From the NCBI GenBank assembly GCA_021740625.1, contig JAIOZK010000014.1, forward strand, positions 1 through 64,000: DNA of 64,000 nt, written 5' to 3'. The notes beneath the pieces were generated by a model. It had not been told where the DNA came from. It saw only the letters and a list, made by a program, of their open reading frames with translations, and did not search any database. This DNA is from Bacteroidales bacterium. GTDB lineage: Bacteria; Bacteroidota; Bacteroidia; Bacteroidales; JAIOZK01. Of this stretch, positions 3-61,753 are shown piece after piece. Position 1 is the first letter of the stretch. Each line of letters starts with the position of its first letter. A program made the translations under genes and the position numbers.

Positions 3-2192
3 CATGGCAACGACTGGGTGGGCGGCCTTGCGGGTTATTCTTCGGGAACGATCAGCAATTGCGCAGTATTGGGGGGAGATATTACAGGCAATGATTATGT
101 AGGAGGTCTTATCGGAGATAATCAAAACTCAGTTTCCAGTTGTTACACCGATATAAATGGAGCAGGTTCTGTCTATGGGGTAAGTAAAATTGGGGGTATT
201 GCAGGCCTGAATGATGGTTCCCTAAATAATTCCTACTGTCATTCAACAGTTACCGGACAGTTTAATGTAGGGGGTATTGTGGGGTATAATGATGGCGCGG
301 GAAATATATCTAAATGCTACAGCACCGGATCAGTAAGCGTTTCCGGTTCTTCGGGCGGCCTGGTTGGCTATAATAACTTTGGCACTGTTACCGGCTCCTT
401 CTGGAATATTATTACATCTAATCAGCCCACCAGTTCAGGAGGTACCGGACTATATACCGGGCAAATGCAGGAGGCCGGCACTTACCTTTCAGAGGGCTGG
501 GATTTCACTTTAAGCGGTAGCACCTGGGCCATGAACGATTCCTACAACAACGGTTATCCCTTCTTACGTTGGCAGGGCATGACCTCTGCTCATATATGGC
601 TGGGAACCACCTCGACAGATTGGAGCACGGCAGGAAACTGGAGTGAGAACAGTATTCCTTCAGAAAAAGTGATCATACCCGATGCAACAGCCACTGATGA
701 TGCTGTCCTTGCCAGTGATGCAACTTCCACCATTTCCCAGCTTAATGTGGAAACCGACGGTTCCCTGACAGTTCAAAGTGCCTCTTCCGGAACCGGGTCG
801 CTGATTGTTACAGGATCAGCATCCGGGAATGTAAACGTTCAAAGATATCTGGATGTCATTGCGAAAAGTCCCAAATGGCACTACGTTTCTGCACCTGTTT
901 CGGGTGTTGATATTGATGATGATTTCATGACAGGTAATTCAATCTACTCTCCTAATGGTGGAACCAACTACAACTTTTACCGCTGGGATGAAGACTCCGA
1001 CTACTGGATTATCTACGGTTCCACGGGCAACCCGGAAGCATTTAACGATGCTACATTTCTTAACGCCAAAGGATACGCTCTCTCCCGCTCCTCAGAAGGA
1101 ACAATAAATTATACAGGAACAATGCGTACGGAGGATGTAACTTACAGTGCAACCTATACCAGCGGGCAGGGAGCCGGCTGGAACCTGATAGGCAATCCTT
1201 TTACAAGTGCGCTTGCCGTAACCACTGACGCCGCAACCGATGACAAATTCCTTACCAATACAACGAATGCATCACTTCTTGATGACAACTATACGGCCCT
1301 CTATATCTGGGATGAAGGAACAGGATATGCCTATGGGGAGGATGACTACAAAGTGATCGGCAATCCTGTTTTGGGTTCATACACCCAGATCGACCAGGAT
1401 TATGTACAGCCCGGGCAGGCTTTCATGGTGAAAGTAAGCTCATCAGGTAATCTTGAATTCAATGAAGATATGCAGGCCCATGCCGATGTTGGTTTCTTCA
1501 AGGAAAAAGAAACCTGGCCCTTTCTGGAACTGCTTTTCACCGGCCAGGGGCTTTCCAACACAACAGCCATAGGCTTTCATGAAGGGATGACAAAAGGTTT
1601 GGATCCATCCTATGATGTGGGTAAACTGAAAGGAAATCCCAATATCGCACTCTACACCCGCCTGGTTGAAGACAACGGCATTGATTTCGCCATTCAGGCA
1701 TTGCCTTTGTTTGAAGGAGATTATTCCGTTCCGCTTGGCATCGACCTGAGCCAGGCCGGTGAATACAGCTTTGAAGTTATTGGGATGAAACAAATACCCG
1801 AAGATGTCCATGTATATTTTGAAGACAAACAAAACCAGGTAGCCCTTAATTTAAGAGAAACCACAAAATATACTTGTATGCTGAATGAGGCTGAAAGCAT
1901 CATCGACCGCTTTATGCTGCATTTCACCCTGACGCCTTTCGGTACCGATGAGGTTGATGTTAAAACCGGTAAAATTAAGATTTGGTCAAGCATCAATACC
2001 ATAAACCTCCACAATCCCGATCAGATCAAAGGAACAGTGAAAATATTCAACCTGTACGGGCAACAGATTATGCAAACAAAACTGAATGGCAACCAACAAC
2101 AAAAGATCAATATCGAAGTTCCTGCAGCTTATTACCTGGTAAATGTGATCAGTGAAAAAGCCATGATCAGCGAGAAGGTCTTTGTTTATTAA
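3..2192 (+). CDS. GLUG-repeat T9SS surface protein, 5'-truncated by window edge
   Basis: The reading frame is open to the left edge, so the true start lies outside the window; the GTG at 18 is only an internal codon. The first ~190 visible residues are GLUG-type repeats (VGGLAGY, VGGLIGD, GGIAGLN, GGIVGYN, GGLVGYN), a fold found in secreted bacterial adhesins. A ~530-residue C-terminal region follows, starting near 591. It is almost the same as the end of the giant protein at 4622-12823. The last ~75 residues resemble a T9SS type A sorting domain (VKIFNLYGQQI, then YYLVNVISEKAMISEKVFV), so export and surface attachment by T9SS is expected. The ligand is unknown. A small membrane protein gene follows 43 bases downstream, as it does after the second copy. 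Confidence 0.85.
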   Translation, partial: HGNDWVGGLAGYSSGTISNCAVLGGDITGNDYVGGLIGDNQNSVSSCYTDINGAGSVYGVSKIGGIAGLNDGSLNNSYCHSTVTGQFNVGGIVGYNDGAGNISKCYSTGSVSVSGSSGGLVGYNNFGTVTGSFWNIITSNQPTSSGGTGLYTGQMQEAGTYLSEGWDFTLSGSTWAMNDSYNNGYPFLRWQGMTSAHIWLGTTSTDWSTAGNWSENSIPSEKVIIPDATATDDAVLASDATSTISQLNVETDGSLTVQSASSGTGSLIVTGSASGNVNVQRYLDVIAKSPKWHYVSAPVSGVDIDDDFMTGNSIYSPNGGTNYNFYRWDEDSDYWIIYGSTGNPEAFNDATFLNAKGYALSRSSEGTINYTGTMRTEDVTYSATYTSGQGAGWNLIGNPFTSALAVTTDAATDDKFLTNTTNASLLDDNYTALYIWDEGTGYAYGEDDYKVIGNPVLGSYTQIDQDYVQPGQAFMVKVSSSGNLEFNEDMQAHADVGFFKEKETWPFLELLFTGQGLSNTTAIGFHEGMTKGLDPSYDVGKLKGNPNIALYTRLVEDNGIDFAIQALPLFEGDYSVPLGIDLSQAGEYSFEVIGMKQIPEDVHVYFEDKQNQVALNLRETTKYTCMLNEAESIIDRFMLHFTLTPFGTDEVDVKTGKIKIWSSINTINLHNPDQIKGTVKIFNLYGQQIMQTKLNGNQQQKINIEVPAAYYLVNVISEKAMISEKVFVY

Positions 2193-2198
2193 AAACTT

Positions 2199-2222
2199 AA
2201 CAATTGAGCAATCGAGCAATGA
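2199..2222. repeat. Octamer tandem array, 3 units
   Basis: Units AACAATTG, AGCAATCG and AGCAATGA start six bases after the stop codon of the preceding gene. The homologous place after the giant protein (12830-12925) holds 12 such units, so the array differs in copy number between the two cassettes. Confidence 0.7.
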
Positions 2223-2235
2223 AAAGATGAAAAAG

Positions 2236-2451
2236 ATGAAAAAGCAAATAATAACTTTAGCACTGATCACCGGCCTTTTATTACCCCTGGGTCTCTTTTC
2301 CCAGGATGTTCCTCCTCCCCCGCCACCGGGGCATGATCAAACCGGCAACCAATCCGGTGGCCGGGGTGCTCCTATTGGCAGTGGGCTGCTTATCCTTCTG
2401 GGATTGGGTGGCGTTTATGGGGGATATAAAATCTATCGAAAAAAGAAATAA
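2236..2451 (+). CDS. Small secreted proline-rich protein with C-terminal membrane anchor (copy 1)
   Basis: The 71-residue product has a signal peptide (MKKQIITLALITGLLLPLGLFSQ), then a PPPPPPGHD stretch, a Gly-rich spacer and a tail made of a GAPIGSG motif, a hydrophobic segment (LLILLGLGGVYGGY) and a basic end (KIYRKKK). I chose the ATG at 2236 because it aligns with the start of its paralogue at 12931; an ATG at 2227 in the same frame would add MKK. The short motif, hydrophobic helix and basic cluster together look like an envelope-sorting signal (exosortase- or rhombosortase-type), but that is inference and no processing enzyme is visible nearby. Similar small ORFs are common in Bacteroidota; their function is not known to me. 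Confidence 0.8.
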   Translation: MKKQIITLALITGLLLPLGLFSQDVPPPPPPGHDQTGNQSGGRGAPIGSGLLILLGLGGVYGGYKIYRKKK

Positions 2452-2551
2452 CGAATAGAATAGCTGATTAGGTACTTTGCAAACTGATCTAAGTTCAAAC
2501 ACATAATCAATACAGATCTTAACGAATTTCTCTGCCTTGAAATTTTACTGC

Positions 2552-2579
2552 TTTGAACCCGACAAATAGTTTACTTTTG
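2552..2579 (+). promoter_or_regulatory. Bacteroidota-type promoter for the AraC regulator
   Basis: TTTG at 2552-2555 and TACTTTTG at 2572-2579 (a match to TAnnTTTG), spaced 16 bases, slightly short of the usual ~19. The ATG follows at 2596, so the 5' leader would be only about ten bases. Confidence 0.45.
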
Positions 2580-2595
2580 TTAAAAATACAGGCAG

Positions 2596-3795
2596 ATGCT
2601 TTTGTCTTTATCAATTATAGGGATCGTACTATCCGCGATCCTGCTATTTTTTAATGCCAGGAGGATTGCTTCATCCATTTACCTGGGGGCCTTTTTTTTC
2701 CTTGTAAGCCTGTATTGTTTTATTGAATATTCAGTAATTTATTCAAAGTCTGTACCCCTGGCAGCCGTCATTTTCATCAATGTAGGTTTTTTATCCTATC
2801 TCACAGGCCCTATGCTATATTTGTATTTCAGGAGCGTACTCAGTGATAATGCAAAACTCAAACGAAGGGATCTATGGCATTTGTTGCCCATGTTAATTTT
2901 CCTTTTCGGGACAATCAACTACATTTTCACTCCCTGGTCCTTCAAAATTGAGATTGCAACAAAACTGATTGAAGATTCAAATTTTATCGGGGCATTCGAT
3001 CATGTTTATTTATATCAGATAATCCCCAAACATCTGGTTTACCTAAGCCGTCCGGTTTTGATCCTCATTTATGCCCTTGCTTCATTGGTAGCATTGGTCC
3101 GTTTTATCAGGAAAAAGACAGAAACAAAAGTTTTCTCCCATCAAAAATATATCGTCAAATGGCTCATGGTTCTGTTGGGCTTTTTATTCATTTTAATCAT
3201 AAGCCATATTTTTCTTTTAAAAGAAAGTTTTGAACTGAAAGATTCAGTCCCATTCTTTACGCTCAATTTCATGCAAGTCCTTTCGCTAATTGGGCTCACC
3301 GGCTTGTTAATCTCACTTTTCTTTTTTCCCGGCATTTTGTATGGATTGCCCCAATTGCCTGTACCAGAAACTTCAAATAGGTCCAAAATTAAAAACCATG
3401 AAGCTTACCGGGTATATCTGCCAGAAAACAAAGCAACATTTGAATCTGAATATCTGAATTCTATTCAACTGAAAGCCGATGCATGCATGAAAGAACTCCA
3501 ACCTTACCTGCATCCCGATTGCAATCTTGCTTATCTTGCCAGGCTTACGAAAATACCGGCACATCATTTTTCGTTTTTATTCAGAGAAATCAAGAATCAA
3601 TCTTTCAATGACTACAGAAATGAATGGCGCATAAAGCATGCAAAATTACTCATATCGGAGGGTAGGTCTTCCGAATTATCCATGGAAGGAATTGGGATGG
3701 CATCCGGCTTTTCTTCGCGTAATACTTTTTATAATGCCTTTAGAAAAAATGAGGGTATTTCCCCTGGTTTATATGCTGCTAAATTGAAAGAATAA
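2596..3795 (+). CDS. Membrane-anchored AraC-family transcriptional regulator
   Basis: 399 residues. The N-terminal ~240 residues form about seven hydrophobic helices (for example IIGIVLSAILLFF, YLGAFFFLVSLYCF, VLSLIGLTGLLISLFF). A linker follows, and residues ~290-399 are an AraC-type HTH domain (LAYLARLTKIPAHHFSFLFRE, then IGMASGFSSRNTFYNAFRKNEGISP). This 7TM-AraC architecture is common in Bacteroidota and is presumed to sense a signal in or at the membrane and act directly on DNA. The gene stands alone between cell-surface genes, so its target cannot be read from context; the downstream lipoprotein and giant adhesin are possible targets (inference). Confidence 0.85.
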   Translation: MLLSLSIIGIVLSAILLFFNARRIASSIYLGAFFFLVSLYCFIEYSVIYSKSVPLAAVIFINVGFLSYLTGPMLYLYFRSVLSDNAKLKRRDLWHLLPMLIFLFGTINYIFTPWSFKIEIATKLIEDSNFIGAFDHVYLYQIIPKHLVYLSRPVLILIYALASLVALVRFIRKKTETKVFSHQKYIVKWLMVLLGFLFILIISHIFLLKESFELKDSVPFFTLNFMQVLSLIGLTGLLISLFFFPGILYGLPQLPVPETSNRSKIKNHEAYRVYLPENKATFESEYLNSIQLKADACMKELQPYLHPDCNLAYLARLTKIPAHHFSFLFREIKNQSFNDYRNEWRIKHAKLLISEGRSSELSMEGIGMASGFSSRNTFYNAFRKNEGISPGLYAAKLKE

Positions 3796-3954
3796 AATGA
3801 ATCAATCACTGATGTTTTATTCAAAGCAAATAGAAGTATTTTATATGATAACTGTCAGACTCCCACTCTTTCCCATTTCCCGCTAATTTGTCCTGTTTTT
3901 CAAAAATGCGACAGATTAAATCATGTCGTTTCCCGAAATTCAATTCGCCTGTAC

Positions 3955-3962
3955 TACATTTG
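3955..3962 (+). promoter_or_regulatory. Candidate -7 promoter box (TACATTTG)
   Basis: An exact match to TAnnTTTG lies 37 bases before the ATG at 4000. No well-placed TTTG upstream box is seen (a TTTC lies 22 bases upstream). The rest of 3796-3999 holds nothing else recognisable. Confidence 0.35.
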
Positions 3963-3999
3963 AAAGTAATAATCTTATATCGTATTCAAAACTTGATTT

Positions 4000-4482
4000 A
4001 TGAAAAAGAACTTTTTTATTATAGCACTATTAATGGGCCTTACATTTTCAGCCTGTACGAAAAAAAGTCCTGAACTTTCTGAACAAGAAAAAACACAAAT
4101 TGAGAATCAAATTCTGGGTGAATGGGAGAAAATATGCTTTGGTATTGAAAATTCAGATAGTGAAGTCTATGCATCATTCATTGATCCTGATTTTATCCAG
4201 ATGGCTTCCAATGGGTCGGTGTTTTATTCAAAAGAAGAATATATTAACAAGGTACGAAACTGGTTTAGTACAAGAGCAAACACAGAAATTCAACAGGAAA
4301 AAATCATTGTCACGGCACTTACTGAGAATATTGCATTTCTTGATCAGGAATCTGATTTTCTGGTAACCTACAAAGAAGGAAATGTTCAACGTGTTCACCA
4401 TGCGGTTTCATTGGTGTTTGAAAAGGAAGCATCAGGATGGATGATAATTCATGGACATGAATCATTTATAGAGATACAATGA
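4000..4482 (+). CDS. SnoaL/DUF4440-like lipoprotein
   Basis: 160 residues starting with a lipoprotein signal (MKKNFFIIALLMGLTFSAC; the lipobox Cys is residue 19). The mature part reads like a nuclear-transport-factor-2 fold of the SnoaL/DUF4440 group: an N-terminal helix (ILGEWEKICFGIENSDSEVYASF), DPDFIQMASNGSVFYSKEEYI, then alternating strands ending in SGWMIIHGHESF. Members of this group include enzymes and ligand-binding proteins, so no activity can be assigned. It is expected to sit on the periplasmic face of a membrane. Confidence 0.7.
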   Translation: MKKNFFIIALLMGLTFSACTKKSPELSEQEKTQIENQILGEWEKICFGIENSDSEVYASFIDPDFIQMASNGSVFYSKEEYINKVRNWFSTRANTEIQQEKIIVTALTENIAFLDQESDFLVTYKEGNVQRVHHAVSLVFEKEASGWMIIHGHESFIEIQ

Positions 4483-4621
4483 TTTTTTATACCCTGTCGC
4501 TACATTTTATTATCATGTACTGAATTTCAAAATCGGGACAAGTACTCCATGCCCGCGTAGCAAATGCCTTTTATTCTAACTTAACTTTATCGCACTTACT
4601 TTTTCCAATAATCAAAGTCTG

Positions 4622-7600
4622 ATGAAAAATCTACAAAAAGGGATAATTACAATTATCATTGTTGCGATTGCCACATGCAATCTGATGGCAACAGTTATTT
4701 ACGTAAACAACTCCGCAACCGGTGCCAACAACGGCACAAGTTGGACGGATGCTTACGAATCTTTACAAACCGCACTTGACAATGCCTCTTCTGGGGATGA
4801 AATATGGGTGGCAAGAGCAACCTACAAACCCAGTTCTGATTATGGTTTGGGAGGCGGTTCGCGATATTATCATTTTAGATTGATTGAAGGTGTGCAAATC
4901 TTTGGCGGATTTGCCGGCACGGAAACAGCCGTCAGCCAAAGGATAAATTTTGGTTCTGGTGAAGCAAACGAAACAATTTTAAGTGGCGACTTGAGCAGCA
5001 ACGATGATTTTGATGTAACAAACGGCGGATATCAGGGAACAAGCGGAGACGACAATTGCTACCATGTTTTCTATCATCCCGATGGTTTGAACCTCACAAA
5101 CGCTTCGATCCTTGACGGCTTTACCATCACCGGAGGAAACGCAAACGGGGCAACCGATCCGCACAACAAAGCCGGAGCTTTGTATCTTTATTCATCTTCA
5201 CCCAGGATTTACAATGTCATCTTTCAGTACAACCAGGCGACAGATCTCGGTGGTGCAGCCTACATGTACTACCATGGATCGGAATTTACGAATGTTTCGT
5301 TCATCGAAAATATTTCAGGTGGCGGAGGGGCAACATACCTTAGCTATGGCGGCACGATTTTCAGTAATGCCATATTTACAGGAAACGTCTCATCCGGCGA
5401 TGGAGGGGCTTTATCTACACATTCATCTCAGCCGGCGCTCAACAATACTTTATTTTCATCAAATACAGCAAGCAACAATGGCGGGGCAATTATTTTTTAT
5501 TCAAACTCCGTTGAAATCAATGTCGATCTAAATAATGTTACATCTTCGGATAATCATGCGGGCGGAAGCGGCGGCGCCATTCGTTTTGCATCCAACAATG
5601 CAGTATCGGAGTTAAACATTAACAACAGTATTATTTGGGATAACACGGCTACAACTTCCGGAAATGAATTATCGCTAATCAGCACAGGAACGACCACACT
5701 GAATTATTCCTGTTATAAAAATGAAACCAATGATGTGGAAGTTTTAAACGGAACACTCACTGCTACAAATAACAACATCACACTCGTCCCCGTATTTGTT
5801 GATCCGGCTGCAGGTGATTTCAGGATCGGTGGTTTTTCTCCATGTAAAGATAGCGGGAAGAATGATTATAATGGCATGGCAACCGATATACGCGGAGAGA
5901 CCAGGATACAGAACACTACCATCGACATGGGCGCTTATGAATGGACAAACGGAGTTGATCCCCAAATTAATGGCGAAAATGTGCTCTATGTAAACATCAA
6001 TGCTTCCGGGGCAAATAACGGTGCAAGCTGGGCTGATGCTTACTCTTCATTTCAAACCGCACTCGACAATTCCATTTCGGACTGTGATATCTGGGTGGCA
6101 AAAGGAACCTACATACCAAGTTCTGATAACGGACTGGGCGGCGGATCGCGTTACTATCATTTCGAAATAAAACACCAGGTTGATGTCTATGGCGGTTTTG
6201 CAGGTACAGAAACAAGTATTGATGAACGTGAAAATTACGGACAGGGCGAAGCCAACGAAACCATTTTCAGCGGCGACTTAAACGGCGATGATGTGGGCTT
6301 TGCCAATAATACCGAAAATTGCTATCATGTTATTTACAATACGACTTCGATAACCGCTACCTATTTGGATGGTGTTACGGTTTCCGGTGGTAATGCCAAT
6401 GGAACAGGCGATCATGCAAAGGGAGGCGGTATGTTTAACTCCTCGACATCCAGGCCATTGTTGAACCATGTGATTTTTTCAGGCAATTCGGCTGTATATG
6501 GCGGTGGAGTATACGGTTATAGCAGTTCAGTGACTCACACCAATGTTTCTTATAATAACAACATCGCGGACTATGGCGCTGCAATTTGCATCCAGGGGGG
6601 AATTACAGAAACAAAGTTACACAATTGCATTATTTCGGGGAACAAGGCAAATGTTGATGGTGGTGGTGTTTTTATTGAAGGAGCCAGGTTTCTTCCGATC
6701 AATACGACCATTACCGGTAATCATGCTGATGGAAACGGAGGGGGTTTACATGCGAATAATAGTAATGGGCCTCAATCGGATCTAAAAAATTCAATTCTGT
6801 GGGGAAATACCGCAAACAATAGCGGAGCACAAATTTATATTAATAATACCAGCTATCCCCATCCATATATTTACAATTGTGATATTGAGGGAGGCTCTGC
6901 AGGTATTGGGCTTAGTTCCGGAACGTATTCAGGTATCTATTCTAACAATATTGATGGCGACCCGAATTTTGTAACTGACGTCCCTTCTCCGGCGCCAAGT
7001 GCGGGTGGTGATTTACATCTAACCAATGATTATCCTGCCAGTACTTCTTCCTGTTTTGAAGCGGGAAATAATGCTTATTTGGAATTTGGTCCTACCACCG
7101 ATTTTGATGGCGAAAACCGCATCCAGGTTGAGCATGTTGACATAGGCGCTTACGAAGGTGGAAATTATTCCACCTCACCCATCATTTATGTGGACATAAA
7201 TGCTACGGGAAACAACGACGGGATTAGCTGGGCGAATGCTTTTACCGATTTGCAGTGGGCATTGCTGATTGCACGCACCTGCCCGGGCTTTACTACCATT
7301 AATGTGGCCGCCGGCACCTATAAACCTACAAGCGGCACCGACCGGGCAATCTCATTTGCAATGGTTAACGGCATTTCAATACTGGGTGGTTATCCTACCG
7401 GCGGAGGTACACGCGACTGGGAAACCAACGAAACCATTCTGAGCGGCGATTTAAGTGGTAATGACGATTTTGATGTAACAAATCACGGATTCCAGGGCAC
7501 AAGTGGTGACGATAACAGTTATCATGTTATTTATAACGATTCCTTAATCAACCTGAATACTACGGCTGTATTGGATGGTTTTACCATTTCCGGCGGATAT

Positions 7601-10600
7601 GCACCAATTGAAGCTACAGGTACCTATCCCAATTTTGTACCCGGCTCTGGAGGAGGAATGTGCAATCTTTCCGCTTCTCCAGGTATTGTTAACTGCACCT
7701 TCACCAGTAATCAGGCAATTCACCAAGGCGCCGGCATGCTTAATTACAATGGTTCATCGCCCGATGTAAGCAACTGTAGCTTCTATGAAAATATAACAAA
7801 TTGGTCGACTGCCAGCTATGGCTCAGGTATGGCTAACTATCATGGTAGCAGTCCAAGTGTTGACTCTTGTGATTTCATATCGAATTATTCCAGTATGGGT
7901 GGTGCCGGTATGTATAATGCAACAGATTGTGACGTATTGGTAACCAATTGTATATTTTCCGAAAATGTAGCTTTTTTTGAACCGATTCACCAGCAGCCAA
8001 ACGGAGGAGGCGGGATGGTTAATTTAGAAAACCATCCTGTGATTATTGATTGCATATTTTCCGGGAATGTAGCGGAGTATCAAGGCGATGGTGGGGCAAT
8101 GTACAATTACTTGGCGGCTGTAACACTTACCAATGTTGTTTTTATAAACAATACAGCAGAGCATTTTGGTGGTGCAATACGTACGGCTTCTTGTTGGGAA
8201 TCTGTTTACTCCAACTGTACTTTTTTCGGAAACTCAACAGATTGGTATGGTGGCGCAATATATTTCTTAAATAGTACAGGGCTTTATGAAAATTCAATTT
8301 TCTGGGGAAACACAGCGGGAACGGCAGGTGATCAGATTTGCTTTACTCTTGACCATGGGGAAACCGATTTTTATCATTGCGATATACAGGGCGGCACGGC
8401 AGCCTTCGGCTTTACTGATGGTAGCGGAACCTACACGGGAAACTATATAAACAATATAGATGCAGACCCATTATTTGTTGATGCTTTAAATGAAGACTTA
8501 AGACTTTACGGAAATTCACCTGCTGTGAATACCGGCGAAAACAGTTATAATGCAGAACCTACCGATCTGCGCGGGCAGGCACGTATCCAAAACACAACCA
8601 TAGATATGGGTGCCTATGAATGGACAGCAGGCCTTGATCCCTATATGAGCACTGGAAATACGATTTATGTTGATGTGAACGCATCGGGAGCAAATGATGG
8701 ATCAGGCTGGACAGATGCCTTTAATTCCTTACAATCTGCCATGGATGTTGCTATTTCAGGCAATGAAATCTGGGTGGCAAAAGGAACATATAGACCAAGC
8801 TATGATTATGGACTGGGAGGCGGTTCCCGATTCTATCATTTTAGAATGATTGAAGGTGTAGAAATCTATGGTGGATTTGCCGGCACGGAAACAGCCGTAA
8901 GCCAAAGGACAAACTTTGGATCGGGCGAAGCCAACGAAACCATCCTAAGCGGCGATTTGAGCAGCAATGATGATTTTGATGCAAGCAACGGCGGATATCA
9001 GGGCACAAGTGGCGATGATAATTGCTACCATGTTTTATATCATCCAGACGGATTGAATCTGACAAGCGCAACAGTTTTTGATGGTTTTACCATAACCGGC
9101 GGGAACGCAAACGGAGCCGCCGATCCGCACAACAAAGCCGGAGCTTTGTATCTTTATTCATCGTCGCCAACCATACAAAATGTATACTTTCATTCCAACA
9201 TGGCGACAGGTTTCGGTGGCGCAGCGTACATGTACAACAGCACATCAGCATTATCAACTGTTTCCTTCACCGAAAATATTTCCGGTGGCGGTGGCGCTTT
9301 TTACATCAGTTATGCCAGCCCGGTTTTGAATGATTGTATATTTACAGGAAACGTGTCATCCGGCGATGGCGGCGCATTTTCCACCCATTCATCCTCGCCA
9401 ACGCTCACCAATGCTTTGTTCTCCTCCAATACGGCCGGGAACAATGGCGGGGCGATTATCTTTTATTCAAACTCTGTTCAGTATAATGCCACTTTAAATA
9501 ATGTAACATTTTCAGATAATATAGCCACTGCAAATGGCGGGGGCATACGTTTTGCCTCCAATAATGCAGCATCAATACTCAACATCAATAACAGCATCCT
9601 TTGGGGAAACACGGCCACAACTTCCGGAAATGAATTGTCGCTGGTCAGCACAGGAACCACTACACTGAATTATTCCTGTTATAAAAATGAAACGAATGAT
9701 GTTGTGCTTACCAATGGAACGCTAACTGCTACAAATAACAATACCACATTCAATCCCGGATTTGTTGATCCTGCTTCAGATGATTTCAGGATCAGGGGAT
9801 TTTCTCCCTGCAAGAATAACGGGTTAAATGGGTATAATGCATTGACATTCGATATACGCGGAGAGGACAGGATACAGAACACGACCATCGACATGGGCGC
9901 TTACGAGTGGACAGATGGAACTGACCCCCTGTACAATGCTGATAATGTGGTTTTTGTAGATATTGATGCATCGGGGGCAAATAATGGTTCAAACTGGACA
10001 GAGGCTTTTACCTCATTGCAGTCGGCACTGAATGGCGCCACATCGGGCGTCAAAATATGGGTAGCAAAAGGGACCTACAAGCCGGAATACGATTACGGTT
10101 TATTGGGGGGGCCACATGTATATCACTTCCGCCTGATTGAAGGCGTGGAAATTTATGGCGGTTTTGCCGGTACGGAAACAGCTGTTAGCCAAAGAACAAA
10201 CTTTGGTCTGGGCGAGGCCAACGAAACCATACTAAGCGGTGATTTGAGCGGCAACGATGATTTTGATGTAAACAACGGTGGCTACCAGGGTACAAGCGGT
10301 GATGACAACTGCGCCCATGTTTTGTATCATCCCGATGGCTTGAACCTCACCAGCGCTTCGATTCTTGACGGTTTTACCATCACCGGTGGGAACGCTAATG
10401 GGCCTGATCCACACATCAAAGCCGGAGGTTTGTATCTTTATGATTCATCGCCCACCATTCAAAATGTAATATTTAAATCAAATCAGGCAATAGAACTCGG
10501 CGGTGCGGTTTACGTTTACAACAGCACATCGGAATTTTCGAATGTTTCGTTCATCGAAAATATTTCCGCCGGTGGCGGCGGACTTTATGTTTCAACAGGA

Positions 10601-12823
10601 AGTCCTGTTATGAATAATTCTGTATTCACAGGCAATGTTTCTTCCGCCGATGGTGGCGCTTTATCCACGCATTCATCGTCACCAACGCTCACCAATGCTT
10701 TGTTCTCATCGAACTCGGCCGGGAACAATGGCGGTGCAATTATCTTTTATTCATCTTCTGTTCAATTCAATGCCACACTCAGTAATGTTACGCTTTCGGA
10801 TAACCAGGCTGGTGTAAGTGGCGGAGGTATCCGCTTTGCTTCGAATAATGCAGCATCAACACTCAACATTAACAACAGCATAATCTGGGGCAACACAGCC
10901 CCAACTTCCGGAAATGAATTGTCGCTGGTCAGCAATGGGAACACCACGATGAATTATTCCTGTTTTAAAAATGCAACGAATGATGTGCAGGTGCAAAACG
11001 GAACTTTTACTATCACCAATAACAATCATTCAAGCAATCCCCTTTTCGTAAATACTTCCGGCGACTTTCGCCTTTTTGGCAACTCGCCTTGCATTAATAC
11101 CGGATTGAACAGCTACAACAGCTTATTGGAAGATATCCGTGGACAAACCCGTATTCAGAACACAAGCATCGATATGGGCGCTTATGAATGGACCAGCGGA
11201 CTTGACCCCGCCACCAATGTGCTTAGCTGGACCGGCAATTCCAGTTCCGATTGGAACATTTCCGGCAATTGGTCGGGAGATATTGTGCCAACACAGAATT
11301 ATGATGTGAATATTCCCCTCACGGCCCACCAGCCGGAAATTGGATCAGCCGAGCATGCCAATTGCAATAACCTGAGCATAGATAACGACGCCAGCCTGAA
11401 CATCCTGAGCGACGCCTCCGGCACGGGATCCCTCATCGTTTCAGGCACAGCTACCGGCAATATCAACGTACAACGCTATCTTGATGTGAACGACAAATCA
11501 AGCAAATGGCATTATGTTTCTGCTCCGGTTTCAGGACAGCTCATCAATGATGATTTCATGACAAACAATTCGATCTATTCACCCAATGGGGGTACAAATT
11601 ATAATTTTTACCGCTGGGATGAAGACACCGATTACTGGATCATTTATGGTTCCACAGGCAACCCGGAAGCTTTTGGGGATGAAAGCTTAGTGGCCGGAAG
11701 GGGCTATACTATGTCGCGTTCTTCCAGTGGTGTAGTTTCTTTTGAAGGCAGCATCCGAACAAATGATGTAACATACGGTGCAAGCTATACCAGCGGGCAG
11801 GGAGCCGGCTGGAACCTGGTGGGCAATCCTTTTACCAGCGCGTTAGCCGTAACCACAGACGCCACAACAGATGACAAATTCCTTAACAATACAACAAATG
11901 CATCACTTCTTGATGACAACTACACGGCCCTTTATATCTGGGATGAGGGAACAGGATATACCTATGGAGGAGATGATTACAAAGTGATCTGCAATCTTGT
12001 AACCGGTTCATACACACAAATCGATCAGGATTATGTACAGCCCGGGCAGGCTTTCATGGTGAAGGTCAGCTCTTCGGGCAACCTGCAGTTTACCCGCAAC
12101 ATGCAGGCACATGCCGATGTTGGGTTCTTTAAGGAAAAAGAAACCTGGCCCTTCCTGGAATTGCTTGTCACAGGACAGGGGCTTTCCAACACAACAGCCA
12201 TAGGCTTTCATGAAGGTATGACCAAAGGACTGGATCCATCCTATGATGTGGGTAAACTGAAAGGAAATCCCGATATCGCACTCTACACCCGCCTGCTTGA
12301 AGACAACGGCATTGATTTCGCCATTCAGGCATTGCCTTTGTTTGAAGGAGATTATTCAGTTCCACTTGGCATCGACTTAAGCCAGATCGGTGAATACAGC
12401 TTTGAAGTGATTGGCCTGGAACAAATACCCGATGAAGTCCATGTTTATTTTGAAGACAAACAAAACGAAGTTAGCCTCAATTTAAGAGAAACCACAAATT
12501 ATACCTGTTTGCTGAATGAGGCCCAAAGCATTACCGACCGCTTTATGTTGCATTTCACCCTGACGCCTTTCGGTACCGAAGAGATCAATGCCAAAGCATG
12601 TAATCTTAAGATCTGGTCAACGTATAATACCATCAAGCTCTATAATCCCGACCAAATCAAGGGAACAATAAAAATTTTCAACCTGTATGGGCAACAAATC
12701 ATGCAAACAAAGCTAAACGGTAATCAGCAGCAACAAATACATATTGAAGTTCCTGCAGCTTATTACCTGGTAAATGTGATAAATGAAAAAGCCATAATCA
12801 GCGATAAGGTATTTGTTTATTAA
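4622..12823 (+). CDS. Giant five-module beta-helix T9SS surface protein
   Basis: 2733 residues with a signal peptide (~1-23). Five tandem modules of ~400-490 residues begin at residues 25, 454, 854, 1347 and 1776. Each opens with [VI]xYV[ND].[ND]A[ST]G.N[ND]G, contains a right-handed parallel beta-helix (Omp/pectate-lyase-like) region rich in GGA and NNGGA turns, and closes with DIRG..RIQNTTIDMGAYEW. From residue ~2200 comes a ~530-residue tail shared with the gene at the left edge, ending in a T9SS type A-like sorting domain. The expected role is a large exported adhesin or a polysaccharide-facing surface protein. I see no catalytic residues that would prove lyase activity. The first and fourth modules have exactly the same length (429 residues), pointing to recent internal duplication or gene conversion. 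Confidence 0.9.
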   Translation: MKNLQKGIITIIIVAIATCNLMATVIYVNNSATGANNGTSWTDAYESLQTALDNASSGDEIWVARATYKPSSDYGLGGGSRYYHFRLIEGVQIFGGFAGTETAVSQRINFGSGEANETILSGDLSSNDDFDVTNGGYQGTSGDDNCYHVFYHPDGLNLTNASILDGFTITGGNANGATDPHNKAGALYLYSSSPRIYNVIFQYNQATDLGGAAYMYYHGSEFTNVSFIENISGGGGATYLSYGGTIFSNAIFTGNVSSGDGGALSTHSSQPALNNTLFSSNTASNNGGAIIFYSNSVEINVDLNNVTSSDNHAGGSGGAIRFASNNAVSELNINNSIIWDNTATTSGNELSLISTGTTTLNYSCYKNETNDVEVLNGTLTATNNNITLVPVFVDPAAGDFRIGGFSPCKDSGKNDYNGMATDIRGETRIQNTTIDMGAYEWTNGVDPQINGENVLYVNINASGANNGASWADAYSSFQTALDNSISDCDIWVAKGTYIPSSDNGLGGGSRYYHFEIKHQVDVYGGFAGTETSIDERENYGQGEANETIFSGDLNGDDVGFANNTENCYHVIYNTTSITATYLDGVTVSGGNANGTGDHAKGGGMFNSSTSRPLLNHVIFSGNSAVYGGGVYGYSSSVTHTNVSYNNNIADYGAAICIQGGITETKLHNCIISGNKANVDGGGVFIEGARFLPINTTITGNHADGNGGGLHANNSNGPQSDLKNSILWGNTANNSGAQIYINNTSYPHPYIYNCDIEGGSAGIGLSSGTYSGIYSNNIDGDPNFVTDVPSPAPSAGGDLHLTNDYPASTSSCFEAGNNAYLEFGPTTDFDGENRIQVEHVDIGAYEGGNYSTSPIIYVDINATGNNDGISWANAFTDLQWALLIARTCPGFTTINVAAGTYKPTSGTDRAISFAMVNGISILGGYPTGGGTRDWETNETILSGDLSGNDDFDVTNHGFQGTSGDDNSYHVIYNDSLINLNTTAVLDGFTISGGYAPIEATGTYPNFVPGSGGGMCNLSASPGIVNCTFTSNQAIHQGAGMLNYNGSSPDVSNCSFYENITNWSTASYGSGMANYHGSSPSVDSCDFISNYSSMGGAGMYNATDCDVLVTNCIFSENVAFFEPIHQQPNGGGGMVNLENHPVIIDCIFSGNVAEYQGDGGAMYNYLAAVTLTNVVFINNTAEHFGGAIRTASCWESVYSNCTFFGNSTDWYGGAIYFLNSTGLYENSIFWGNTAGTAGDQICFTLDHGETDFYHCDIQGGTAAFGFTDGSGTYTGNYINNIDADPLFVDALNEDLRLYGNSPAVNTGENSYNAEPTDLRGQARIQNTTIDMGAYEWTAGLDPYMSTGNTIYVDVNASGANDGSGWTDAFNSLQSAMDVAISGNEIWVAKGTYRPSYDYGLGGGSRFYHFRMIEGVEIYGGFAGTETAVSQRTNFGSGEANETILSGDLSSNDDFDASNGGYQGTSGDDNCYHVLYHPDGLNLTSATVFDGFTITGGNANGAADPHNKAGALYLYSSSPTIQNVYFHSNMATGFGGAAYMYNSTSALSTVSFTENISGGGGAFYISYASPVLNDCIFTGNVSSGDGGAFSTHSSSPTLTNALFSSNTAGNNGGAIIFYSNSVQYNATLNNVTFSDNIATANGGGIRFASNNAASILNINNSILWGNTATTSGNELSLVSTGTTTLNYSCYKNETNDVVLTNGTLTATNNNTTFNPGFVDPASDDFRIRGFSPCKNNGLNGYNALTFDIRGEDRIQNTTIDMGAYEWTDGTDPLYNADNVVFVDIDASGANNGSNWTEAFTSLQSALNGATSGVKIWVAKGTYKPEYDYGLLGGPHVYHFRLIEGVEIYGGFAGTETAVSQRTNFGLGEANETILSGDLSGNDDFDVNNGGYQGTSGDDNCAHVLYHPDGLNLTSASILDGFTITGGNANGPDPHIKAGGLYLYDSSPTIQNVIFKSNQAIELGGAVYVYNSTSEFSNVSFIENISAGGGGLYVSTGSPVMNNSVFTGNVSSADGGALSTHSSSPTLTNALFSSNSAGNNGGAIIFYSSSVQFNATLSNVTLSDNQAGVSGGGIRFASNNAASTLNINNSIIWGNTAPTSGNELSLVSNGNTTMNYSCFKNATNDVQVQNGTFTITNNNHSSNPLFVNTSGDFRLFGNSPCINTGLNSYNSLLEDIRGQTRIQNTSIDMGAYEWTSGLDPATNVLSWTGNSSSDWNISGNWSGDIVPTQNYDVNIPLTAHQPEIGSAEHANCNNLSIDNDASLNILSDASGTGSLIVSGTATGNINVQRYLDVNDKSSKWHYVSAPVSGQLINDDFMTNNSIYSPNGGTNYNFYRWDEDTDYWIIYGSTGNPEAFGDESLVAGRGYTMSRSSSGVVSFEGSIRTNDVTYGASYTSGQGAGWNLVGNPFTSALAVTTDATTDDKFLNNTTNASLLDDNYTALYIWDEGTGYTYGGDDYKVICNLVTGSYTQIDQDYVQPGQAFMVKVSSSGNLQFTRNMQAHADVGFFKEKETWPFLELLVTGQGLSNTTAIGFHEGMTKGLDPSYDVGKLKGNPDIALYTRLLEDNGIDFAIQALPLFEGDYSVPLGIDLSQIGEYSFEVIGLEQIPDEVHVYFEDKQNEVSLNLRETTNYTCLLNEAQSITDRFMLHFTLTPFGTEEINAKACNLKIWSTYNTIKLYNPDQIKGTIKIFNLYGQQIMQTKLNGNQQQQIHIEVPAAYYLVNVINEKAIISDKVFVY
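4694..5980 (+). repeat. Beta-helix module 1 of 5
   Basis: 1287 bp, in frame. Opens with VIYVNNSATGANNG and ends with DMGAYEW...GENV. Closest to module 4, which has the same length. Confidence 0.8.
5981..7180 (+). repeat. Beta-helix module 2 of 5 (divergent)
   Basis: 1200 bp. Opens with VLYVNINASGANNG. Shares the front segment with the others but has a different helical body and a shortened closing motif (VDIGAYEGG). Confidence 0.75.
7181..8659 (+). repeat. Beta-helix module 3 of 5 (longest, divergent)
   Basis: 1479 bp. Opens with IIYVDINATGNNDG. Lacks the GLGGGSRYYHF segment of the others and has extra helix coils. Confidence 0.75.
8660..9946 (+). repeat. Beta-helix module 4 of 5
   Basis: 1287 bp, the same length as module 1. 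Opens with TIYVDVNASGANDG. Long identical runs with modules 1 and 5 (FAGTETAVSQRTNFG, ANETILSGDLS). Confidence 0.8.
9947..11218 (+). repeat. Beta-helix module 5 of 5
   Basis: 1272 bp. Opens with VVFVDIDASGANNG. Closely similar to modules 1 and 4 and directly followed by the shared C-terminal tail. Confidence 0.8.
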
Positions 12824-12829
12824 AAACTT

Positions 12830-12925
12830 AACAATCGAACAATTGAGCAATTGAGCAATTGAGCAATTGAGCAATTGAGCAATTGAACAATTGAACAATC
12901 GAACAATGAAACAATGAAACAATAA
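12830..12925. repeat. Octamer tandem array, 12 units
   Basis: Twelve consecutive 8-bp units: AACAATCG, AACAATTG, five AGCAATTG, AACAATTG, AACAATCG, two AACAATGA, AACAATAA. It lies between the giant gene's stop codon and the ATG of the small protein, where it could alter spacing or transcript structure by slippage. There are no spacers, so it is not a CRISPR array. Confidence 0.9.
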
Positions 12926-12930
12926 AAAAG

Positions 12931-13161
12931 ATGAAAAAGCAGATAATAACTTTAGCACTGATCACCGGCCTATTATTACCCATGGGTCTCTTTTCCCAGG
13001 ATGTTCCTCCTCCCCCGCCACCGGGGCATGACCAAACCAAAAACCAATCTGGCGGCCGGGGTGCTCCTATTGGTAGCGGACTGCTCATTTTGCTGGGACT
13101 GGGAGGTGTTTATTGCGGGTATAAGGTCTATCAGAAAAAAAGAAAGCCTTTGTTCGAATAG
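12931..13161 (+). CDS. Small secreted proline-rich protein with C-terminal membrane anchor (copy 2)
   Basis: 76 residues, nearly the same as the protein at 2236-2451: a signal peptide, PPPPPPGHDQ, GGRGAPIGSG, one hydrophobic segment (LLILLGLGGVYCGY) and a basic tail extended to QKKRKPLFE. Differences include a Cys replacing Gly in the membrane segment and a longer C-terminus. It lies 107 bases after the giant adhesin gene with an octamer array between, and is probably co-transcribed. Keeping this gene beside both adhesin tails suggests the two products act together, but no function is known to me. Confidence 0.8.
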   Translation: MKKQIITLALITGLLLPMGLFSQDVPPPPPPGHDQTKNQSGGRGAPIGSGLLILLGLGGVYCGYKVYQKKRKPLFE

Positions 13162-56788: not shown

Positions 56789-56994
56789 TACCTTTCGGAA
56801 GGAAATTGTCCCACAATTTATGTAATTTTTTTCCATTCTAAATAACACAAAATCCAAAAGCCTTATTCATGTAGCGACAAAAACACCTCAAAGAACCTTA
56901 TTTAAATTTGCCAGAGCGTTTTTCAAAATAAAAATGCTAAAGCATATTCGATCCATTCGCAAAGAAGCGGGCATTTTATTTCTCAATTAATCCT

Positions 56995-57002
56995 TACTTT
57001 TG
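56995..57002 (+). promoter_or_regulatory. Candidate -7 box (TACTTTTG) for the MFS operon
   Basis: An exact TAnnTTTG match with TTTT 17 bases upstream (56974-56977). It lies 21 bases before the ATG at 57024; the alternative TTG start at 57000 would fall inside the box. Confidence 0.4.
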
Positions 57003-57023
57003 AGGCTTGATAAAAACTTGAGC

Positions 57024-58439
57024 ATGGAACAAATTAAAAGAACACTTCGTGACAAGCCTTCCGCACGCTGGGCAATGATGGTAATCGTGAGCTTCCTGAT
57101 GGCAGCAAACTATTACTTTTATGATGCCCTTTCACCATTGAAAGATATTCTAACAGAAAAACTTGATTTCAGTTCGCAGGATTTTGGGATCGTGGCAGGA
57201 TTCTATGCTTTTCCAAATACCTTTCTCTTAATGGCCATTTTAGGAGGAATCATACTCGATAAACTTGGGATCAGACCAACCGGATTGCTTTTCGCCGTCT
57301 TTATGCTTGTTGGCGCAATATTGACCGCTTACGGGGCAAGTGATTACTACAGACATGGAGGCATTGGTTATGCCTTGATGAATTCATTCTGGCCTTCCTG
57401 GTCGCCGGAATTGAAAATGATGTCGCTTGGCATGCTGATCTTCGGCCTGGGAGCCGAAACAAGTATCGTGGTTGCAAGCAAAGTCATTGTAAAATGGTTC
57501 AAAGGTTATGAAATTGCACTGGCTTTTGCATTAAACCTGGGGATTGCAAGAATCGGAACCGCTCTGGCCTTTAATTTTTCCGAAAGGCTGATAAGACCTG
57601 ATTTCTGGACAGCCCCGATCTGGTTTGCTACAATGCTGTTACTGATAGGTTTTCTGGTTTTCCTGATTTATATCATGTATGATATCAAACTCGACAAACA
57701 GCAGAAACAACAGGTAAATTTGCTGGACAAGGAAGATGAATTTCATATTTCAGATCTGGGCAAACTGGTAACCAACCGTTCATTTCTTTTCATCACAGCA
57801 CTTTGTGTTACCTTTTATGCCGGAGTATTTCCTTTCCTTAAATTTGCACCCGATTTCTTCTATCATAAATTCGGTGTTTCTACTACGCGAGCCGGGGATA
57901 TCGCTTCAATGTTGCCGTACGGGACAGTTTTATTTACACCAATATTCGGATGGTTTGTGGATAAATACGGCCGAAGTGCTTCACTCATGATTTATGGTTC
58001 CCTGTTATTGTTTCTCGTACACCTGCTGTTTGGGTTAACCTCATTCAATGTCTATTTCCTGATGGTGATCCTCGGAATAGCATTTTCTCTCGTACCTGCT
58101 GCCATGTGGCCGGCGGTTGCCAAAATCGTACCAATACAGCGGATCGGAACCGCTTATGGTTTTATGTTCTCTTTGCAAAACCTTGGACTTTTTGGTGTAC
58201 CCATACTTGCAGGAAGCATACTGGACGCAACCAATCCCGGCATTACACCGGAAATGATCAAAGCCGGTTCAAATCTTCACTATACCCCAACGATACTGAT
58301 GTTTGCGGGATTTGGAATTATAGGCTTTATCTTTGCCCTGCTCCTGAAGTGGGACGACAAAACTTCAGGCTATGGCCTCGAACTTCCCTCGAACGTTACC
58401 CATAAAGATATTGAACAGGAAACCAAAGCAGAAGTCTAA
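57024..58439 (+). CDS. MFS transporter (first of tandem pair)
   Basis: 471 residues from the ATG at 57024 (MEQIKRTLRDKPSARWAMM). About twelve hydrophobic helices, with MFS signature GGIILDKLGIRPTG between helices 2 and 3 and the related FVDKYGRSASLM between 8 and 9. The last periplasmic loop is short (PGITPEMIKAGSNLHY). It ends DDKTSGYGLELPSN, the same as its neighbour. The substrate is not clear; the operon with alkaline phosphatase suggests an organic anion, phosphate ester product or nucleoside-type substrate (inference). Four bases before the second transporter gene. Confidence 0.88.
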   Translation: MEQIKRTLRDKPSARWAMMVIVSFLMAANYYFYDALSPLKDILTEKLDFSSQDFGIVAGFYAFPNTFLLMAILGGIILDKLGIRPTGLLFAVFMLVGAILTAYGASDYYRHGGIGYALMNSFWPSWSPELKMMSLGMLIFGLGAETSIVVASKVIVKWFKGYEIALAFALNLGIARIGTALAFNFSERLIRPDFWTAPIWFATMLLLIGFLVFLIYIMYDIKLDKQQKQQVNLLDKEDEFHISDLGKLVTNRSFLFITALCVTFYAGVFPFLKFAPDFFYHKFGVSTTRAGDIASMLPYGTVLFTPIFGWFVDKYGRSASLMIYGSLLLFLVHLLFGLTSFNVYFLMVILGIAFSLVPAAMWPAVAKIVPIQRIGTAYGFMFSLQNLGLFGVPILAGSILDATNPGITPEMIKAGSNLHYTPTILMFAGFGIIGFIFALLLKWDDKTSGYGLELPSNVTHKDIEQETKAEV

Positions 58440-58442
58440 TTT

Positions 58443-60452
58443 ATGAATGCATTACAAAGATCACTGAAAGATTCTGTTGGCATCAGGTGGGCCATTCTTT
58501 TCCTGATCGCCTTTGTGCAGGCAGCCAACTATTATTTTTATGATGCCATCTCTCCTCTGAAACGACTGCTGGAAGAGAACTTCAACATCACCTCGGCTGA
58601 TTACGGCATGTTCGTGGCCGCCTATTCCATTCCAAATACCTTTCTGCTCATGGCTGTGCTGGGCGGGATCATCCTGGATAAGCTGGGTATACGCCGCACA
58701 GGCTTCCTTTTTGTCGGTATGATGGCCCTGGGTGGATTGCTAACTGCTTATGGTGCCAGCGAATACTTCAGCAGTGGTGGTTTCGCTTATGGATTTTTCA
58801 ATTCATTCCTGAGCAATTATTCTCCAGAGTTGAAAATGATGGTGCTGGGTCGTTTTTTCTTCGGGTTGGGTGCCGAGACAAGCATCGTGGTCGTGAGCAA
58901 GATCATCGTGAAATGGTTCAAAGGCAAAGAACTGGCCTTGGCTTTCGGGATGAAGATCGGACTGGCAAGGGCCGGTTCGGCACTGGCATTATTCTATTCG
59001 GCCGAGATTGCAGAAGCTTCTTCACACTGGACCATCGCCATATGGTTTGCTGCCATTATGCTGCTGGTTGCATTCCTGGCTTTCCTGGTATACGCAATTT
59101 TTGACGTCAGGATTGACAGGCAACTCAAGGGAGAAACGGATCTGCTAAAGAAAGATGAACAGTTTAGCTTCAGGGATCTGGGTAAATTACTCACCAATAA
59201 ATCTTTCATTTTCATTACCCTGCTCTGTGTTACTTTTTATTCGGCAGTCTTTCCATTCCAGGCTTATTCCCCCGACTTCCTGCTCAACAAATTTGGCATG
59301 GGGCTTTCGCAAAGCGGAAAGATCGCTTCCATATTATACTGGGTAACAATGTTTGCCACGCCCCTTTTCGGACTGGTTGTGGATAAATTCGGTCGCAGCG
59401 CCACACTGATGATCTTTGGGTCGATCCTGCTAACCCTGATCCATCTAACATTTGCTCTTACCTATTTCAATCCGATCGTGCCCCTCGTTTTGCTGGGCAT
59501 CGCCATTGCCCTGGTACCCGCGGCCATGTGGCCTGCAGTGGCCAAGATCGTTCCCGAGAAAAGGATCGGTTCAGCCTATGGAGCTATGTTTTCGGTACAG
59601 AACCTGGGTCTGTTCCTCTTCCCTATCTTTGCCGGCCTCATACTTGATGCTACCAATAAAAATGCGGATATTTTCCTGGGTCCCGACCAAACTTCCATGA
59701 TCAAAAATACCAAGGTTTTTGAAGGACAATATCTGGATGATAACAACCAGGTGATCCAAAACAAAGCTCTCCTGGCTTCTCTTACTTTATATGCCCTGCC
59801 GGATGACACAATGCCCTCAAGGTCGCAGGAAGTTATTGAAAAACAAGCTTCTGCCACAGGCGAGATCATCTGGACTGAATATTATCAAACCCGCTCCAAC
59901 CGGTCAGGCATTTTCAGAGACACGCTTGGTACAGACAGCACCGAGAAAATAAACATTGCGTATTTCAATATTGATCCGGAAAGCCAGATCATCAGCATCT
60001 ATACTGCAGGAGAGAAAAGCAAGGAGATAATCTCGACAAGTCAATTCGAAATACCTGTTGATCAAGATTTCATCAAACTGGAAATTGAGGTTGATGAGAA
60101 AAACAAAAGTTTGTTGAAAGCTTCAGAAAAAGTTAATATAAGTTTAACCGATACTTCCAGCAAACAATTAATTTTGGCCGAGAAACACAAGGTGTTTTTT
60201 AATGATGCGGGACAGCTCAGCCTGAAAGTTGGAAAGGGCGAGATCGAATATGCAAATATCCAATACCTTGACTGGGATAAGAATATCGTAATCAAAGTCA
60301 GAACACCGCTGGATTACACATATACTATCCTGATGTTTGCCGTGCTTGGCCTGTTCGGACTATTCTTCGCCATCCTGCTAAAAAGGGAGGATAAGAAAGC
60401 CGGATACGGATTGGAGCTGCCCTCTAACAAAAAAGCCAAAAATTCTGAATAA
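58443..60452 (+). CDS. MFS transporter with ~200-residue periplasmic insertion (second of tandem pair)
   Basis: 669 residues. The helices and motifs (GGIILDKLGIRRTG, VVDKFGRSATLM, ALVPAAMWPAVAKIVP) closely match the upstream paralogue, so this is a tandem duplication. Between the last two helices, residues ~405-620 replace a 16-residue loop with a soluble domain. The second half of it looks beta-rich (IISIYTAGEKSKEIISTSQF, FIKLEIEVDEKNKSLLKASE, GQLSLKVGKGEIEYANIQYL), a strand pattern resembling carbohydrate-binding jelly-roll/LamG-type domains. With the standard MFS topology this loop is periplasmic. It starts three bases after the first gene and is followed after one base by the phosphatase. 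Confidence 0.88.
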   Translation: MNALQRSLKDSVGIRWAILFLIAFVQAANYYFYDAISPLKRLLEENFNITSADYGMFVAAYSIPNTFLLMAVLGGIILDKLGIRRTGFLFVGMMALGGLLTAYGASEYFSSGGFAYGFFNSFLSNYSPELKMMVLGRFFFGLGAETSIVVVSKIIVKWFKGKELALAFGMKIGLARAGSALALFYSAEIAEASSHWTIAIWFAAIMLLVAFLAFLVYAIFDVRIDRQLKGETDLLKKDEQFSFRDLGKLLTNKSFIFITLLCVTFYSAVFPFQAYSPDFLLNKFGMGLSQSGKIASILYWVTMFATPLFGLVVDKFGRSATLMIFGSILLTLIHLTFALTYFNPIVPLVLLGIAIALVPAAMWPAVAKIVPEKRIGSAYGAMFSVQNLGLFLFPIFAGLILDATNKNADIFLGPDQTSMIKNTKVFEGQYLDDNNQVIQNKALLASLTLYALPDDTMPSRSQEVIEKQASATGEIIWTEYYQTRSNRSGIFRDTLGTDSTEKINIAYFNIDPESQIISIYTAGEKSKEIISTSQFEIPVDQDFIKLEIEVDEKNKSLLKASEKVNISLTDTSSKQLILAEKHKVFFNDAGQLSLKVGKGEIEYANIQYLDWDKNIVIKVRTPLDYTYTILMFAVLGLFGLFFAILLKREDKKAGYGLELPSNKKAKNSE

Positions 60453-61571: not shown

Positions 61572-61707
61572 GGCTGGAGGCTGGAGGCTGAAGGCTGGAG
61601 GCTGGATGCTGGAGGCTGGAGGCTGGAGGCTGGATGCTACTGGAGGCTGGAGGCTGGAGGCTGGAGGCTGGAGGCTGGATGCTACTGGAGGCTGGAGGCT
61701 GGAGGCT
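61572..61707. repeat. Heptamer tandem array (GGAGGCT), 18 units
   Basis: Eighteen 7-bp units, mostly GGAGGCT with variants GAAGGCT (one) and GGATGCT (three), interrupted twice by ACT after a GGATGCT. The pattern (GGAGGCT)n-GGATGCT-ACT is itself a higher-order repeat. It begins 15 bases after the phosphatase stop codon. Confidence 0.92.
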
Positions 61708-61753
61708 GGGATGAATTACGGGGTGCCGGATTAAAAAAGCAATTAATTTTTCC

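Follow-up and report, generated by a model that had tools for sequence, protein, structure and literature searches.

The window analysed here is a 64,000-nucleotide stretch at the start of contig JAIOZK010000014.1 of a Bacteroidales bacterium (assembly GCA_021740625.1, 4.0 Mb in 52 contigs). It carries two genes for putative surface proteins of the type IX secretion system (T9SS), at positions 3-2192 (copy A) and 4622-12823 (copy B), each followed on the same strand by a small gene of 74 to 76 residues. The 5' end of gene A lies beyond the start of the contig; gene B encodes 2733 residues and begins with MKNLQKGIITIIIVAIATCNLMA, in which a Sec signal peptide is recognizable by eye. The passengers carried in front of the related tails differ, that of copy A consisting of GLUG repeats and that of copy B of a Chlam_PMP match and five choice_anch_Q modules (Table 1).

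The two tails are 84% identical across their last 430 residues and 77% identical across 530 columns of the protein alignment, and the small proteins are 92% identical. At the DNA level, identity is mostly 67 to 98% per 60-nucleotide block from ~811/11442 (copy A/copy B) through the small gene, falls to chance level past the small-gene stop codon, and is only ~50% upstream of ~790/11420. Both genes end in a T9SS sorting region: TIGR04183 scored 24.6 bits in copy A (over the cut-off of 23) and 21.3 bits in copy B (slightly below), and Por_Secre_tail matched at 1e-5 and 2e-4, slightly below the Pfam cut-off. An earlier note on this DNA had described, in this order, a duplicated ~530-residue tail with a T9SS sorting end, an octamer array and a small gene, behind unrelated passengers and with the matching stretches starting at 591 and 11219. 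The order of tail and small gene, the length of the tail, its sorting end and the unrelated passengers were all confirmed by these alignments and profile matches. Of the two starting points, 11219 proved to be a sharp junction when compared with a GLUG gene (L150) of a sister species in the same genus, but 591 is only a weak match of a WxG..DW..NWS linker to the linker at 11219 and not the edge of a recent duplication. The octamer array had to be dropped from the unit. It comprises 11.8 units in copy B and two to three in copy A, but arrays of the same CAATNGARC octamers are found at ~20 sites across the genome (the reversed pattern has no occurrence anywhere in this genome), and it was rejected as a cassette component on that ground.

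The tail belongs with the C-terminal regions of two Flavobacterium johnsoniae proteins, RemA, a gliding adhesin, and RemZ, a RemA homologue captured within the T9SS translocon (PMC10994853). A profile of the tail covers the C-terminal 430 to 470 residues of both (PDB 8gl6, 8gl8), matching positions 4-432 of 433 for RemA (profile A7; E about 5e-55) and 3-403 of 404 for RemZ (profile A8; E 9e-57), so that the likeness is full length, and the conserved C-terminal Lys is kept. In line with this, the C-terminal domain (CTD) in a structural model of the copy B tail (mean predicted local distance difference test score, 73) superposes on the RemZ CTD at 2.0 Å, and root mean square deviations of the CTD fold from the RemA and RemZ structures were 2.0-2.3 Å. 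The fold of the preceding stalk was not assigned by Foldseek, because the matches of the tail model were CTDs and generic beta-sandwiches alone. The T9SS translocon protein SprA is present in the host genome (TIGR04189, 2625 bits). By sorting domain, signal peptide (in copy B) and host SprA, both genes are putative T9SS type A cargo. They differ from RemA and RemZ in their passengers.

The small protein has the predicted layout of PID-CTERM (NF046080), a family of exosortase-type substrates. All 46 small proteins examined have, by hydropathy, a signal peptide, a Pro-rich spacer of 15-39 residues, a transmembrane helix and a net positive end; they are 67-88 residues long with a single transmembrane segment, and nearly all carry an AP(I/V/L)(G/D)-type motif ahead of the helix in the alignment. 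The motif here is mostly APIGG or APIGSG, unlike the PIDGG of NF046080. Two related small proteins (L058 and L061) score over the NF046080 cut-off, at 36.5 and 34.3 bits. Given the PID-CTERM match and the exosortase link described below, the idea that the small gene represents a novel orphan family was rejected. No paper on PID-CTERM, or on PIDGG together with exosortase, was found in a literature search conducted mostly without subscription journals.

Table 1. Parts of the two tail and small-gene units in the window
Feature	Position	Strand	Basis
Passenger of copy A, GLUG repeats	3-599	+	PF07581, E 2e-7
Linker of copy A, WxG..S.DW...NWS type, diverged from copy B	600-794	+	~50% DNA identity to copy B and to sister-species tail
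RemA/RemZ-type tail of copy A; type A T9SS CTD at ~1998-2189	795-2189	+	84% to copy B; RemZ, E 9e-57; Por_Secre_tail
Small PID-CTERM-like gene of copy A, ATG at 2227 or 2236; sorting segment ~2371-2442	2227-2451	+	NF046080, 20.1 bits (cut-off 26); family alignment
Passenger of copy B, signal peptide and five beta-helix (Chlam_PMP/choice_anch_Q) modules	4622-11218	+	PF02415, E 1e-28; NF041518, five stretches
Linker of copy B; 11219 is the start of DNA similarity to sister-species GLUG gene L150	11219-11425	+	blastn, 83% from 11219 to 13136; alignment
RemA/RemZ-type tail of copy B; type A T9SS CTD at ~12629-12820	11426-12820	+	Alignment, tail profile, CTD superposition
Octamer array between the genes of copy B; genome-wide microsatellite	12830-12923	+	Repeat count; genome-wide occurrence
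Small PID-CTERM-like gene of copy B; sorting segment ~13063-13137	12931-13161	+	92% to copy A; family alignment

The arrangement recurs well outside the window. This genome holds six tails and six small genes, always in the order tail then small gene, and each of the six has the appearance of a complete gene (with copy A extending beyond the start of its contig). Their passengers are GLUG repeats, the beta-helix protein, two laminin-G domains, a passenger of 322 residues, fibronectin III plus MAM, and a short passenger related to a cohesin-domain-carrying one in the sister species. Among 60 order-level relatives, 46 of the 59 small-gene matches begin 15-268 nucleotides behind a tail on the same strand, and 80 loci collected by tail alone from named GTDB records contained 36 pairs of tail and small gene among 99 tail open reading frames (ORFs). 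With six occurrences of the pair here and further ones in dozens of other genomes, a chance arrangement is excluded. Directly upstream of one cassette (C17, 1-9000; L016) lies a minus-strand run of long secreted-looking genes, two of them with T9SS-like ends. Elsewhere in the window, the protein encoded at 44992-46971 matches the tail profile weakly (E 8e-6), with no small-gene match beside it.

Next to this recurrence stands a joint history of the tail and the small gene. Across 43 cassettes, tail distances and small-protein distances are correlated (r, 0.52; same-genome pairs, 0.74), and none of 2000 within-genome permutations reached the observed value. The passengers behave differently. 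Rather than one type on all tails, 38 comparable passengers fell into 23 unrelated groups, with Pfam types that include GLUG, Chlam_PMP, LamG, cohesin, fn3/MAM, BNR_assoc_N, LTD, beta-propeller, Shr-like, sortilin-like and immunoglobulin domains. Four passenger types recur on separate, strongly supported clades of a maximum-likelihood tail tree: L119 and L138 share passengers at 55% over 565 residues with tails at 31%, L116 and L147 at 43% over 1206 residues with tails at 28%, copy B and L115 at 37% over 1240 residues with tails at 27%, and L113 and L142 at 45% over 353 residues with tails at 26%. Since beta-helix and GLUG passengers are repeat proteins, the likeness in the last two pairs is possibly in part convergent; the homology of the first two is less open to that objection. 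Judged from these distances and this tree, the tail and small gene are inherited together and the passengers are reassorted.

The sister-species gene L150 allowed one such exchange to be placed on the DNA. Its linker, tail and small gene are 83% identical to copy B over 11219-13136, and copy A matches it only from 786 onward. The match of L150 to copy B from 11219 indicates that in copy B a beta-helix passenger is followed by a tail from a GLUG-type gene, the two being joined at ~11219. Along the tail, relationships change. In its first part copy B is 90-96% identical to L150 in most blocks; further along there is a stretch in which copies A and B are closer to each other, as they also are in the small gene (96%, against 76% to the sister gene). 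In a maximum chi-square analysis of A, B and L150, the observed value was unreached in 2000 permutations for two of the three comparisons and was reached in 64 for the third. This mosaic supports recombination or conversion between cassettes. It also bears on the direction of the exchange, as the tail and small gene could instead have been copied by gene conversion onto an existing beta-helix gene. The closeness of A and B to each other in the later stretch and small gene fits such a replacement, as does the fact that the nearest beta-helix relative, L115, has another tail; however, a single simple conversion tract is insufficient, because the linker and first tail part of B are closer to the sister GLUG gene than to A. 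We regard this as a serious possibility, although not the likelier course of events, and it is compatible with the explanation favoured below.

Repeated tail and small-gene segments beside unlike passengers, with an octamer array between the genes, might also suggest phase or antigenic variation, with passengers switched through DNA rearrangement. All six genes appear functional, however, no silent passenger fragments were seen beside them, the longest exact word common to the two window copies is 61 nucleotides, and the octamers are genome-wide. Such switching is very improbable and was rejected as a candidate, given six complete-looking genes without silent cassettes or long identical repeats. 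The same absence of silent cassettes and long identical repeats implies that any surface variation is evolutionary. The earlier note's proposal of a modular cassette with a kept tail and partner and swapped passengers is thus borne out by the tail and small-protein correlation, the passenger groups and the recombination along the tail, and its suggestion of a possible source of surface variation would apply on the evolutionary scale and not as switching.

A further line of evidence ties the small gene to an exosortase. We surveyed 296 genomes of the class with a completeness of at least 90%, in which the small gene was found in 137 and a match to the model of exosortase X (XrtX) in 176. An XrtX-type match was present in 135/137 genomes with the small gene, as opposed to 41/159 without it (Fisher, 1e-43), with the proviso that the XrtX model also matches other exosortases. 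As related genomes are not independent, the figure by genus is fairer: all 84 genera with the small gene also have an exosortase (4e-32). In 63 of the 144 cases listed, the exosortase comes directly after the small gene and starts 16-243 nucleotides from it. At the order level, 15 of 16 small-gene-positive relatives have an exosortase, the exception being a genome that is 79% complete; PF09721 alone overlooks XrtX homologues in three of four small-gene-positive relatives, which the XrtX model catches. The NCBIfam models for PID-CTERM, exosortase X and an XrtX-associated membrane protein bear consecutive numbers (NF046080, NF046081 and NF046082), and at locus L246 of a relative the three genes stand in a row behind a T9SS cargo, with PID-CTERM and the associated membrane protein slightly below their cut-offs. 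Rows of T9SS cargo, small gene and exosortase were likewise seen in G053, G065, G120, G183 and G279. Of 20 class-level loci inspected, about 9 have a long gene with a T9SS-like end that terminates 12-63 nucleotides ahead of the small gene, and when five cargoes ahead of small genes were scanned with NCBIfam, four were over the CTD cut-off and one was below it.

The small gene is thus syntenic and co-occurring with XrtX homologues, as in known XrtX/PID-CTERM loci, but differs from these in being present here in six copies, each behind a T9SS adhesin rather than beside xrtX. In two reports (PMC7468200, PMC12188702), PEP-CTERM proteins are proposed to be cleaved by an exosortase and attached to a lipid or glycan. 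Our small proteins share with the PEP-CTERM systems described there the tripartite C-terminal signal and exosortases near polysaccharide genes; they are unlike PEP-CTERM substrates in having only ~75 residues and in being paired with a T9SS cargo. The exosortases of this genome, an XrtX-like one on contig C47 and another on C26, sit away from the cassettes. The C47 locus (112000-119000; L109) includes a polysaccharide-deacetylase gene and a FemAB-like gene of types familiar from exosortase loci (pepcterm_polyde- and pepcterm_femAB-like, both below cut-offs), and its exosortase ORF is bordered by in-frame low-complexity repeats (FASFAPF, RTERTER). The C26 gene (14538-14966; L021, L108) is a second member of the exosortase/archaeosortase family and is followed by a gene for a 210-residue membrane protein with no match to any NCBIfam model.

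With moderate confidence, we favour the reading that each unit is a surface-display cassette, comprising an adhesin exported through Sec and T9SS and a small docking or retention partner processed by XrtX. The first gene product would carry a variable passenger, a RemA/RemZ-type stalk and a type A CTD across both export steps. The second would be exported by Sec and held in the inner membrane by its C-terminal helix until an XrtX-type exosortase cuts it near the APIGG motif and joins it to a carrier lipid or surface glycan. What is left, a Pro/Gly-rich peptide of 15-40 residues, would most likely be dedicated to docking or retaining the cognate stalk or CTD region at the surface. The six display cassettes of this lineage probably arose by joint duplication of tail and small gene and by their recombination onto different passengers. 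A bolder form, in which the XrtX-attached PID-CTERM peptide docks RemA-type adhesins through the cognate stalk and so provides a plug-in display platform for recombined passengers, is offered tentatively and is rather unlikely.

A surface protein with a dedicated partner gene immediately downstream is also seen in SprB/SprF, where a type B CTD protein is paired with a PorP/SprF protein (PMC9143113, PMC12618676); here, the CTD is of type A, and a tiny protein of exosortase type takes the place of the outer-membrane barrel. The parallel raises the question of whether the PID-CTERM protein is instead an export helper, one that would keep or pilot the cargo in the periplasm or at the inner membrane up to the point where T9SS takes over and XrtX releases it. 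The gene order, cargo then partner, is that of type B cargo and their SprF shuttles (PMC12618676), and before it is cleaved the small protein would sit in the inner membrane by virtue of its transmembrane helix. This role is unlikely, however, as the common PorV shuttle is known to serve type A cargoes and a small gene is missing from half of the RemA-type tails. It is also conceivable that there is linkage without partnership, the small protein being an XrtX substrate with its own job (for example, in exopolysaccharide attachment) that is merely co-transcribed and carried along by duplication. Stand-alone small genes, the many tails without one, and the many class genomes with one small gene, often beside xrtX, are all consistent with this. 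We nevertheless judge it improbable in view of the number of small genes close behind a tail (46/59, all within 268 nucleotides), the co-inheritance of tail and small gene within genomes, and the independent cargo, small gene and XrtX rows in several families.

Several observations weigh against the display-cassette reading. Five of this genome's six small proteins score 18.2-23.7 bits with NF046080, under its cut-off of 26, and the sixth gave no match to that model; the best XrtX match in this genome, that on C47, reaches 87 bits against a cut-off of 170, so that it is XrtX-like and below the curated level. Linkage in an operon possibly reflects shared regulation, not binding. Some small genes are solitary, or lie beside xrtX without a T9SS cargo upstream. 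Among the matches listed for the order-level relatives, 104 of 150 tails have no small-gene match behind them, and in the set chosen by tail alone about half of the tails lack a neighbouring small gene; because of this, the tail can work without it. In 27 lone tails inspected, 25 of them with 640-700 nucleotides of downstream sequence, no small gene was present in that sequence in any. Related tails in Polaribacter and Winogradskyella also occur without a PID-CTERM gene. The small gene is gained or lost ~36 times on a tree comprising 160 tails, a number below the 53.5 for shuffled labels but still large. The expectation, taken over from the earlier note, that the small gene constantly follows the tail in related genomes did not hold, and its standing as a constant companion was rejected.

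Both components are of known kinds, the tail belonging to the RemA family and the small protein to PID-CTERM/XrtX; what is new is the recurring link of T9SS type A adhesins to XrtX/PID-CTERM. The pairing of tail and PID-CTERM, its amplification with swapped passengers and the cargo, PID-CTERM and XrtX row were unreported in the literature found, with most subscription journals outside the search, and the accessible parts of papers covering both exosortases and T9SS do not report the link. Two sorting systems that have been studied separately thus appear to act on the same surface proteins in Bacteroidota. According to two reports (PMC10936215, PMC12188702), F. johnsoniae XrtF mutants lose surface colonization and biofilm, and the substrates of XrtF are unknown. 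The substrates and purpose of Bacteroidota exosortases are an open question that our data address, and a candidate substrate family for XrtX, a relative of XrtF, with a gene-order tie to a class of T9SS adhesins makes that question testable. The cassettes are also a clear example, spanning a phylum, of a conserved secretion tail on which adhesin heads have been exchanged.

Two further features of the window were recorded. A tandem duplication at 56991-60449 comprises two adjoining paralogous genes for membrane transporter-like proteins with closely similar starts, and a GGCTGGA/45-nucleotide tandem array of ~19 units occupies 61572-61709.

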